Position numbers and translations under genes: made by a program. The notes below the pieces were generated by a model, which made no database searches, was not told where the DNA came from, and was given only the letters and a program-made list of their open reading frames with translations. From an uncultured Bacteroidia bacterium (GTDB lineage: Bacteria; Bacteroidota; Bacteroidia; Bacteroidales; UBA932), in NCBI GenBank assembly GCA_902791945.1, contig CADAXR010000010.1:1-55946 (forward strand): 55,946 nt of DNA, in the 5' to 3' direction. The stretch's first letter is position 1. Each line of letters opens with the position of its first letter. Of the stretch, positions 32,368-37,176 are shown piece by piece.

Positions 32368-32493
32368 CTAACCATTGATTTCGGGGTCAAACGGATCGAC
32401 CGGGTAGCCCTCGTGGCTTGCCGTCAGGACGTTCTCGATGAACTTTCCGGCGTAAATTCTGACAGCAGGGGCGGTGTAGAGATTTTTCTCCAT
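32368..32493 (-). CDS. 41-residue pre-ORF before the M64 peptidase
   Basis: It begins MEKNLYTAPAVRIYAGKFIE and ends PFDPEING. The TAG stop at 32370-32368 is one base before the M64 ATG, so ribosomes finishing here could restart directly on the peptidase gene. The layout resembles the 43-residue pre-ORF at 1473-1604: MxxNxYxxP start, an Ile/Leu-rich middle, an LxxS element, and an Asp-rich end. It has its own consensus promoter. Confidence 0.6.
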   Translation of the reverse strand: MEKNLYTAPAVRIYAGKFIENVLTASHEGYPVDPFDPEING

Positions 32494-32523
32494 AACTGGC
32501 CTTGATTATAAATCTGTAAGATA

Positions 32524-32554
32524 CAAAAATAGAATTATTTTTTTACCTTTGCAA
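32524..32554 (-). promoter_or_regulatory. Promoter of the pre-ORF and M64 operon
   Basis: On the minus strand TTG (32554-32552), 20 nt, then TATTTTTG (32531-32524). It overlaps the -7 box of tmRNA on the other strand. Confidence 0.75.
32544..32551 (+). promoter_or_regulatory. -7 box of tmRNA
   Basis: TACCTTTG matches TAnnTTTG exactly and ends 10 nt before the tmRNA 5' end. A -33 TTG was not found at 17-23 nt. Confidence 0.6.
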
Positions 32555-32561
32555 TCCATTC

Positions 32562-32956
32562 GGGGATGTTCTGGTTTTGACAGCACTGACCTCGGACGGT
32601 AAGCACGCCGGGCGTTGGAGCCTTGCCCGTAAATCTCAGACTCCGAACAACAGTTGCCAAAAACAACTACGCACTCGCTGCCTAATCAGACTTAGTCGGT
32701 TAGCTTAATCCGCGGAGCCAAGGCTGCCCCGCCGACGAGTATCCCCCGGACTTCACGCCGGTCATGTTCCGACCAGGGGGTATCATTCAGACCGGATGCA
32801 CGGAGGGACTCCCTTAAACTCCGCCAAGACCCAAGGGATAAGGTCGCCCCAAGCCCGCCTTCCGGCGTGGACGGCCCGACAGCCAAAGGAAGGATAAGCG
32901 TGTAGAAAGCCGCCTGTAGCGGTGTTTGGACGGCGGTTCGAGTCCGCCCATCTCCA
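32562..32956 (+). ncRNA. ssrA: tmRNA (ssrA)
   Basis: This 395-nt transfer-messenger RNA rescues stalled ribosomes. The 5' end GGGGATG pairs with CATCTCC (32949-32955), and the T-arm reads GGCGGTTCGAGTCCGCC. The tag frame at 32656-32685 encodes AKNNYALAA followed by TAA, with the degradation end typical of the group. CCA is not encoded. Two bases after the 3' end, the next gene begins. An ORF start at 32926 runs through the T-arm and should be ignored. Confidence 0.97.
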
Positions 32957-32958
32957 CG

Positions 32959-33810
32959 ATGAGGACCATCATTTGTGAAGCCGGAGCCACGAAGGCGGAC
33001 TGGCGGCTCGTCGAGGACGGCCGGCAGGCCGCCCGTGTTCTTACAGGCGGGACCAATGTCTCCGCAATGAAAATGGATGCGGTCGAAGCCGTAATCCGGG
33101 AGGCCGCCGGATCTCTGAAAGAGGCCGCCGGAAAGGTTGACGCCGTGTATTACTACACCGCCGGCGTTATCACGGATCCCATACGAAAGGACATGGAAGC
33201 AATCCTGCGGAGCTGCTTCGGCGCCTCCGTCCTTGACATCCAGACGGACCTCATAGCGTCGGCAAGGGCCGCCTGCGGCCACGAGCCCGGCATCGCCGCC
33301 ATCCTCGGCACCGGCTCCAACTCATGCCAGTGGGACGGAGAGAAAATAGTGAAGCACGTCAACTGCGGCGGCTTCATCATCGGTGATGAAGGCTCCGCCT
33401 CAGTCCTCGGGAAGCTTTTCATATCGGACTACATCAAGGGGCTTGTGCCGGAGGAGATTGCTGCGGACTATGCCGCACGCTTTCCCTCCACCTATCCGGA
33501 AATCGTGGACGCCGTCTACCACAACCCGGCCTCCCCTTCAGGGTGGCTCGGCAGCCTCTCCCCCTTCATCGTCTCGTGGTACTCCCACCCCTATGTCAAG
33601 GCGATGGTGGACGGCAATTTCCGATCTTTCGTTGAAAGGTGCCTGAGCCTGTACGAGATTGACAAATACCCGGTCGGCATCGTCGGCGGATTCGCCGACG
33701 CCCTCAAAGACATAGTGAGGCCCATATTCGAAGAGGCCGGCATACGCATCAGGGCATTCATCCCGACCCCTATCGAAGGGCTTGTCAGTTATCACTCTTC
33801 GGATCGCTGA
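32959..33810 (+). CDS. BadF/BadG/BcrA/BcrD-type kinase (N-acetylglucosamine kinase-like)
   Basis: The 283-residue protein starts MRTIICEAGATKADWRL, the ATP-phosphate loop of this family. It continues with AILGTGSNSCQWDG and the GGFIIGDEGSASVLGK motif. Relatives phosphorylate amino sugars such as N-acetylglucosamine. The start is set by the tmRNA: it is only 2 nt after the mature 3' end, with no room for promoter or ribosome-binding site. Translation therefore depends on a read-through tmRNA precursor and 3' processing. The 3' end overlaps the converging upxY by 26 nt. Confidence 0.85.
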   Translation: MRTIICEAGATKADWRLVEDGRQAARVLTGGTNVSAMKMDAVEAVIREAAGSLKEAAGKVDAVYYYTAGVITDPIRKDMEAILRSCFGASVLDIQTDLIASARAACGHEPGIAAILGTGSNSCQWDGEKIVKHVNCGGFIIGDEGSASVLGKLFISDYIKGLVPEEIAADYAARFPSTYPEIVDAVYHNPASPSGWLGSLSPFIVSWYSHPYVKAMVDGNFRSFVERCLSLYEIDKYPVGIVGGFADALKDIVRPIFEEAGIRIRAFIPTPIEGLVSYHSSDR

Positions 33811-34432
33811 CTTTCTCCAGGTATTTCGGAGCGATGAAAGAGGTCGCCACTGCAACGAAGCCTTCGATGGCGACGAGCAGGCGGCGATCTTTTTTTATGC
33901 GTTTGATATAGCCTTCAACGCCGTTCAGGGGGCCTTCCATCGTGACCCGGACCCTGTCCCCCTGCTTGAAGGAGACGATGCTCTCGTCGGAGAAGAACTC
34001 AAGCCCGTCCATCCCTGATTCGCAGACCATCCGGAACATCTTCATCTGACTGTCCGGAATAAGCGCAGGGGCCTTTTTATCCACGGTCATATAGAGCATC
34101 GCCTGCAGAAGGTTTCCACCGGAAGAGACCATCAGCATCCTCTCGAAATCCGACTTGACCTGCAGTGCGTCCTGAACCGTACCGCGGAAGAAAAGAAGGG
34201 AGGCGACGATGGTCTTCCGTTTATATATATACGGCCCTTCGACGATGTATTTGCGGTCGTTCCTGGTGTCGTCAGGAACGGCGAGACGGCGCTTGACACG
34301 AAGGAACTCCTCTCCCTTGAGCTGCTCGCGGGTCACGGGGATGAAGGTCTCCAGACCGCGGCCGGAAAGGATTTCCTCAACTTCGAAAACCCTGTTGTAG
34401 AATACCTTGAGTGCGAACCAGTGCTGATCCAT
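33785..34432 (-). CDS. UpxY-family transcription antiterminator (NusG-like)
   Basis: The 215-residue protein has a NusG N-terminal domain (HWFALKVFYNRVFEVEEILSGRG) and a KOW segment near the C-terminus (FKQGDRVRVTMEGPLNGVEGYIKRIKKDRRLLVAIEGF). In Bacteroides, UpxY proteins are first genes of capsule operons and stop early termination there. Here it is the last gene after alr, 4 nt downstream. No polysaccharide genes follow, so it looks orphaned or acts in trans. The tail overlaps the kinase gene. Confidence 0.85.
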   Translation of the reverse strand: MDQHWFALKVFYNRVFEVEEILSGRGLETFIPVTREQLKGEEFLRVKRRLAVPDDTRNDRKYIVEGPYIYKRKTIVASLLFFRGTVQDALQVKSDFERMLMVSSGGNLLQAMLYMTVDKKAPALIPDSQMKMFRMVCESGMDGLEFFSDESIVSFKQGDRVRVTMEGPLNGVEGYIKRIKKDRRLLVAIEGFVAVATSFIAPKYLEKVSDPKSDN

Positions 34433-36301: not shown

Positions 36302-36535
36302 TCAGAACAATGTAGGATGGTTCTCATCGAGCGCGGTGAGGACCTTGTCCATGATTGCCTCACGGAATAGCGCGGCGCGGGACTTCACTCCGAAACGGTC
36401 GCAGAACTCATCTATCGCGGCCTTCTCACGGTCGTTGATGTGGAAGGTCTTGCGGTGACGGCGGCGAAGCGCCTGCTTCTGACGCTCGAGGAAATCTGGA
36501 TCGACTCCCTGAAGCTGCTCTTTTTTCTTCTTCAT
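36302..36535 (-). CDS. Small ribbon-helix-helix-like protein
   Basis: The 77-residue protein has a basic N-terminus (KQALRRRHRKTFHINDREK) and a helix pair (AAIDEFCDRFGVKSRAALFREAIM) with the look of a CopG/Arc-type DNA-binding fold. It ends ALDENHPTLF. Its start overlaps the DJ-1 stop by 4 nt, so it is the third product of the tRNA-Gln transcript. Regulation of its own operon is possible but not shown. Confidence 0.7.
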   Translation of the reverse strand: MKKKKEQLQGVDPDFLERQKQALRRRHRKTFHINDREKAAIDEFCDRFGVKSRAALFREAIMDKVLTALDENHPTLF

Positions 36536-37101
36536 AGCAACAATCCTTTTCTTACGCCATCCGCAGCGTCTTCGCCCGCGAGACGGGCTAGGACAGCGAG
36601 GCCGAATTCCATTGCGAGACCGGGGCCGCGCCCGGTGATGAGATTACCGTCCTGCTCCACCGATGCGCCTGTGCAGACGGCGCCTTTCGAGACAGGGATA
36701 TCCTCACATCCGGGATAGCAGGTAAAGCGCCTCCCCTCCTGCCCGGGCAGCTGCGAAGTCACAAGACCGGGAGCCGCGCAGATCGACGCGACAAGCCCGC
36801 CCTCGCCCGCGTGGCGGACCATCACGGCGATCAGCTCTTTCTTTTCGGCAAGATACTTCGACCCGGGAAGACCTCCGGGGAAGATAAGCGCTTCGGCGCC
36901 TTCAGAGGCGAATTCGGGCTCGAATTCAGGGAAATTCATGTCGGCTTCGACGACGACGCCGTGGGAACTTTCGACCGACCAGCGGTCTTCATAGATGGAT
37001 ACCGTCTTCACAGGCACTCCGCCCCTTCTCAGGATATCCACGGTGCAGAGGGCTTCCATATCCTCGAAGCCGTCAGCAAGAAAGATATACGATGCCTTCA
37101 T
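36532..37101 (-). CDS. DJ-1/PfpI family protein
   Basis: The 189-residue protein has the start SYIFLADGFEDMEALCTVDILRRGG, IFPGGLPGSKYLAEK, and the nucleophile elbow VASICAAPGLV with the conserved Cys. Relatives are deglycase, chaperone or thiazole-associated proteins. The ATG at 37101 cannot move far without breaking the family's first strand. It lies 4 nt after the mature 3' end of tRNA-Gln, leaving no space for its own promoter. Confidence 0.88.
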   Translation of the reverse strand: MKASYIFLADGFEDMEALCTVDILRRGGVPVKTVSIYEDRWSVESSHGVVVEADMNFPEFEPEFASEGAEALIFPGGLPGSKYLAEKKELIAVMVRHAGEGGLVASICAAPGLVTSQLPGQEGRRFTCYPGCEDIPVSKGAVCTGASVEQDGNLITGRGPGLAMEFGLAVLARLAGEDAADGVRKGLLL

Positions 37102-37105
37102 AGTG

Positions 37106-37176
37106 TTGAGGTAAGAGGATTCGAACCTCTACTGAGGGAACCAAAATCCCTAGTGCTACCATTACACCATACCTCA
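37106..37176 (-). tRNA. tRNA-Gln (anticodon TTG)
   Basis: A 71-nt cloverleaf: acceptor TGAGGTA/TACCTCA, discriminator A, anticodon TTG (plus-strand CAA at 37142-37144) in loop TTTTGGT, and T-arm AGAGGTTCGAATCCTCT. CCA is not encoded. The precursor would continue directly into DJ-1. Confidence 0.96.

Follow-up and report, generated by a model that had tools for sequence, protein, structure and literature searches.

A gene for a BadF-type kinase resembling N-acetylmuramic acid/N-acetylglucosamine (MurNAc/GlcNAc) kinases starts 2 nucleotides (nt) behind the mature 3' end of the transfer-messenger RNA (tmRNA) gene ssrA on a contig of an uncultured Bacteroidia bacterium of the UBA932 lineage (CADAXR010000010.1, assembly GCA_902791945.1, 55,946 nt, hereafter the window). 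A probable, if far from certain, account of this arrangement is capture of the kinase gene by ssrA, followed by read-through transcription and release of a near-leaderless kinase mRNA by RNase Z. A bare kinase coding sequence would have replaced the DNA between ssrA and the UpxY-type gene, which in the relative G275 consists of the ssrA terminator and a serpin gene, and the kinase ATG would thereby have come to lie 2 nt from the tmRNA end. Transcription from the ssrA promoter would read through into the promoterless kinase gene, and RNase Z would cut behind the discriminator A32956, yielding a pre-CCA tmRNA and a kinase mRNA starting CGAUG that would be translated as a near-leaderless message. 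The link between kinase and tmRNA would then be a by-product of promoter capture and no old regulatory circuit.

The junction was read directly from the letters. The acceptor end CATCTCC is followed by the discriminator A at 32956, C at 32957, G at 32958 and the ATG at 32959-32961, and the terminal CCA is not encoded, all as the earlier note had described it. ARAGORN calls the tmRNA at 32562-32957, counting the first C behind the discriminator, and the Rfam RF00023 match, at 137 bits where the gathering score is 47, covers 32562-32959. From the ATG at 32959 a frame of 283 codons extends to a stop ending at 33810. Its predicted N-terminus aligns residue for residue with those of the homologs in the relatives G419 and G201 (MRTIICEAGATKADW / MKFVICEAGATKADW / MKKIICEAGATKADW), and the homolog in G032 is two residues shorter at this end. 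Judged by this alignment, the start proposed earlier on the strength of the family N-terminus holds, and the ATG at 32959 is evidently the right kinase start, homologous across the family. A TTG in the same frame at 32926, within the tmRNA, was rejected as the start because the 11 residues it would add have no equivalent in the aligned homologs. The 2 nt between the genes leave no room for a promoter, as had been pointed out, and a terminator cannot fit either. The ribosome-binding site reported as missing has no room as well, but its absence is nothing unusual, Shine-Dalgarno sequences being generally missing in Bacteroidetes according to the consulted portion of PMC3155529.

The kinase gene would most simply be transcribed by read-through from the ssrA promoter. 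The motif TACCTTTG upstream of ssrA is the sole exact match to TAnnTTTG, which we take to be the Bacteroidetes-type -7 consensus, in the scanned stretches (32440-32561 and 32562-32966), and TACCTTTGC is unchanged in the relatives G275 and G375. A promoter inside the tmRNA gene, which would give the kinase mRNA an ordinary tmRNA-derived leader with no need for processing, is unlikely. Partial motifs inside the tmRNA, such as TGGTTTTG at 32572 (1 mismatch) and GGTGTTTG at 32921 (2 mismatches), speak for it, and half of the distinct upstream regions of kinase genes (16 of 32) have an exact TAnnTTTG no more than 90 nt from the start, the window's own carrying none; of 35 kinase loci, three were set aside (two duplicate upstream regions and one start outside the locus). 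However, only such 1- or 2-mismatch matches and no exact TAnnTTTG occur within 32562-32966, as far as a consensus scan, which is no promoter test, can tell. Moreover, G375 has the same 58 bases before the G of the spacer (32900-32957) without a coding start directly behind them, so that a promoter specific to the kinase does not seem to have evolved in them. A sigma-70 scan, ill-suited to this phylum, gave 0 sites, and terminator-like sites in the same scan numbered 2 against 2.2 expected. In relatives and the window together, a terminator-like structure stands behind ssrA at 63 of the 90 loci (out of 98) that yielded a tmRNA under the rule of this survey, a crude rule that also fires inside coding DNA.

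The processing step is plausible, because an ssrA promoter motif is present, 2 nt are too few for a terminator, and members of the RNase Z and CCA-adding enzyme families are encoded in the genome. The RNase Z-type trimming proposed in the earlier note thus has a homolog that could make the cut. Several points nevertheless weigh against release of a functional near-leaderless message. The RNase Z homolog scores 256.5 with TIGR02651, below the cut-off of 292.95; the ssrA-kinase juxtaposition lacks conservation; and a message with a monophosphate end might be short-lived. For the released mRNA, the predicted fold of its first 42 nt (-7.1 kcal/mol as a whole) places the AUG in a 4-bp stem, and in Prevotella bryantii structure around the start reduced expression, as described in the part of PMC3155529 at hand. 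Likewise, 5' untranslated regions below 10 nt make up only ~3.7% in Bacteroides thetaiotaomicron, by the figure in the consulted section of PMC7366714. The predicted stem and the rarity of short leaders also fit read-through that yields little or no kinase protein, with the tail degraded after tmRNA 3' processing and the kinase gene a poorly expressed passenger. We consider this passenger state rather improbable, as the frame is intact and constrained with no clear excess of changes on its branch, an argument of little weight if the move was too recent for decay.

The kinase is under selective constraint. Against its nearest homolog, in G419 (74% at the amino acid (aa) level), nonsynonymous divergence (dN) is 0.18 and synonymous divergence (dS) 1.74, the latter saturated, and 12 changes fall on the window-kinase branch versus 8. 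Family membership suggests a MurNAc/GlcNAc-type kinase with a putative substrate. The protein scores 31.9 bits with PF01869 BcrAD_BadFG, barely over the cut-off of 31.5, and resembles solved members among its six PDB matches (best E 8.9e-54), of which three bear the name GlcNAc or MurNAc kinase, one is called an ATPase and two are hypothetical; the match to the NCBIfam GlcNAc-kinase model NF046058 (19.1) is far below the cut-off of 370. A protein search found the kinase in 121 of 150 relatives, and homologs lie at other loci, behind promoter motifs or other genes; the G419 homolog, for example, lies 4 nt behind an MFS-type transporter gene. In L156 and L162 the kinase gene directly follows a murQ-type etherase gene (NCBIfam), and in L163 and G201 the gene at that place encodes a protein resembling this etherase. 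Such neighbourhoods recall MurK of Tannerella forsythia, a PF01869 kinase of the murTKQ operon in the consulted part of PMC5790795, whereas the window kinase stands alone behind ssrA and its substrate is putative.

Syntenic relatives carry different DNA between ssrA and UpxY. Gene order in G275 is as in the window on both sides of ssrA, and G375 is syntenic on the right side only. In G275, an intrinsic terminator (identified by eye) directly follows ssrA, then a serpin gene and the convergent UpxY gene; G375 has a 548-aa gene without Pfam match and a serpin gene at this place. The serpin genes between ssrA and UpxY in relatives (L247:5933-7192 and L243:4754-6028) are absent from the window, where no serpin remnant was found (best E 0.76). 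Here the kinase coding sequence alone fills the place, the UpxY gene overlaps its 3' end by 26 nt, and the sequence becomes similar to that of the relatives again near the kinase stop codon. The ssrA-kinase pairing is probably a recent arrangement, and the order of events proposed above is inferred. In favour of an assembly error at the join, the genome is a draft of 187 contigs and the junction occurs in no other listed match from 400 genomes of the genus. We regard such an error as very improbable: it would take two false joins, as synteny with G275 holds on either side of the insert, and no repeat was seen, the ssrA 3' end having no second copy at fewer than three mismatches and the kinase one match in the genome. 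Recent attachment of a phage or integrative and conjugative element at ssrA was rejected on the same 20-base ssrA 3' piece, whose two 3-mismatch matches both lie within tRNA genes; an old attachment event may still have taken place.

The ssrA-kinase pair is not a conserved operon. Among 98 tmRNA loci (97 of them from relatives), the window's own is the only one with a kinase homolog; in the tmRNA search 120 of 150 genomes gave a match above the cut-off, and the downstream flanks were mostly ~1.5 kb, some cut by contig ends. A 421-base query across the junction (32900-33320) against the 400 genus genomes recovered the tmRNA-kinase junction only from the window itself among the matches listed, which reached down to E 2e-14. 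Several ssrA-side matches extend up to 23 bases past the tmRNA (e.g., G404, G395 and G177), and at seven listed ssrA loci (six longer ssrA-side matches and G357) no kinase homolog lies in the stretch taken. The spacing whose conservation the earlier note wished checked is therefore not kept in relatives, which have other DNA at that place, and the tie it drew between kinase expression and tmRNA maturation gains no comparative support as an established link. The juxtaposition itself is what speaks for a real regulatory circuit coupling MurNAc/GlcNAc kinase output to tmRNA maturation; we give such a circuit almost no credence, as the pair was seen in one genome only and the genes at this place in other congeners are mutually unrelated.

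The position behind ssrA recurs in the genus, and the kinase does not. With an ssrA 3'-end pattern that requires fixed T-arm and acceptor letters and misses diverged ssrA genes, an ATG was found 1-11 nt behind the discriminator in 48 of the 400 genus genomes. Of 47 distinct sequences with an ATG within 13 nt of ssrA, five open a frame of at least 250 aa. An ATG near ssrA is thus common and a long frame from it rare. The five frames encode the kinase (2 nt), an RmuC family protein (3 nt, G244, whose contig ends inside the tmRNA and hence has no ARAGORN call), anaerobic sulfatase maturases (5 nt in G050, 10 nt in G241) and a CDF transporter (6 nt, G273). The last was discounted, its first ATG lying at a hairpin foot with pyrimidines next and its real start probably ~45 nt away. 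A Y-family polymerase gene (G074) and an NlpC/P60 protein gene (G089) follow at ~15 nt, and the same ATG survey gave a 157-aa frame in G075. Frames in L056 (99 aa), L069 (90 aa) and L110 (146 aa), along with GTG/TTG frames, were not counted as genes, and a metallophosphoesterase frame with a TTG at 7 nt (G002, L067) was set aside, its probable start being further on.

A second junction of this kind lies in the window itself, where a DJ-1/PfpI family gene follows tRNA-Gln (Table 1). The 4-nt spacing is shared by G275 (CACT) and G375 (CAAT), and this three-genome pattern is our best evidence that such a short leader may be tolerated over time in the clade. Beyond these three genomes the spacing varies. 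At most of 30 DJ-1 loci, tRNA-Gln is not the immediate upstream neighbour on the same strand, and a tRNA-Gln pattern matched 14 of the 400 genomes, where the spacers range upward from 4 nt and the downstream genes were identified in part. A survey of the 43 ARAGORN genes of the window's genome found six with a frame (ATG, GTG or TTG; at least 80 aa) starting within 6 nt behind, and those of the tmRNA and tRNA-Gln were kept. Set aside were tRNA-Arg (ATG inside a terminator-like hairpin), a TTG frame behind tRNA-Leu, a doubtful tRNA-Pro prediction, and a tRNA-Thr frame whose TTG lies upstream of a frame reading MAKE..., presumably EF-Tu. In the same genome, with no terminator seen between, tRNA-Thr precedes a PCMD-domain protein gene by ~15 nt, tRNA-Val the EF-P gene by ~19 nt and tRNA-Glu the ribosomal protein S20 gene by 22 nt (L028, L011 and L029).

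Table 1. Positions of the features at the ssrA-kinase junction, at the tRNA-Gln/DJ-1 junction and behind ssrA in congeners.
Feature	Position	Strand	Basis or remark
ssrA (tmRNA, tag AKNNYALAA)	32562..32956, to discriminator A	+	ARAGORN; Rfam RF00023 137 bits
Spacer CG	32957..32958	+	read directly; whole leader if RNase Z cuts behind 32956 (presumed cut)
BadF-type kinase, MurNAc/GlcNAc kinase-like, 283 aa	32959..33810	+	PF01869; PDB relatives; start aligned with homologs
TACCTTTG, Bacteroidetes-type -7 motif, presumed ssrA promoter	32544..32551	+	sole exact TAnnTTTG in scanned stretches
UpxY-type antiterminator gene, convergent, right edge of replaced stretch	33785..34432	-	NF033644 104.5 bits; syntenic in G275, G375
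tRNA-Gln, to discriminator	37106..37176	-	Rfam RF00005 37106-37176; ARAGORN 37105-37176
4-nt spacer CACT, tRNA-Gln to DJ-1 gene	37102..37105	-	second case of same kind
DJ-1/PfpI family gene	36532..37101	-	TIGR01383 144.8 bits, over cut-off
RmuC family gene	L260:268-1503 (G244)		3 nt behind ssrA discriminator
Anaerobic sulfatase maturase	L090:703-1992 (G050)		5 nt behind ssrA
Anaerobic sulfatase maturase	L250:214-1503 (G241)		10 nt behind ssrA

The ssrA-kinase pair can be placed among the known stable RNA-mRNA units as a variant, and it would operate in the manner of tRNA punctuation should the cut be confirmed. A coding gene lies directly downstream of a stable RNA on the same strand with no terminator seen between, as in tRNA-tufB, a bacterial tRNA-mRNA read-through unit, and in the tRNA-Val/EF-P and tRNA-Glu/S20 pairs of the same genome; the spacers of those units are ~19 nt or more, whereas here 2 nt follow a tmRNA. 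In mitochondrial tRNA punctuation, mRNA 5' ends are made by excision of a neighbouring tRNA. The likeness lies in start codons a few nt from a mature 3' end (2 nt for the kinase, 4 nt for DJ-1), with near-zero leaders that would come from excision of a tRNA-like RNA, while the present case is bacterial, concerns one gene, has a tmRNA in place of a tRNA and involves a presumed cut. RNase Z cuts a tRNA-Val/sRNA8 precursor in Nanoarchaeum equitans, as stated in the portion of PMC3491384 consulted, but there the downstream RNA is a C/D box small RNA and the organism an archaeon. In titles and abstract openings on leaderless mRNAs, tRNA-mRNA operons and ssrA/tmRNA processing, with few subscription papers among them, we recognised no description of a coding gene that follows ssrA directly and has a near-zero leader.

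A genus-wide extension is offered tentatively, at somewhat short of an even chance: 3' maturation of tmRNA and some tRNAs would be a general route to near-leaderless mRNAs, promoterless genes having been captured repeatedly 2 to 5 nt behind them and the Shine-Dalgarno-independent ribosome tolerating the missing leader, which would make this route a bacterial analogue of mitochondrial tRNA punctuation. Were this so, ssrA and some tRNA genes would supply unrelated genes with a promoter and a 5' end, and a single maturation cut would give both a working tmRNA and a translatable mRNA. This would also explain how a gene survives a move that costs it promoter and leader, and Bacteroidetes would offer a natural system for near-leaderless translation. 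As a separate observation on ssrA, ARAGORN predicts tmRNA tags ending in SYAC and not ALAA in several congeners (e.g., L052, L058 and L064).
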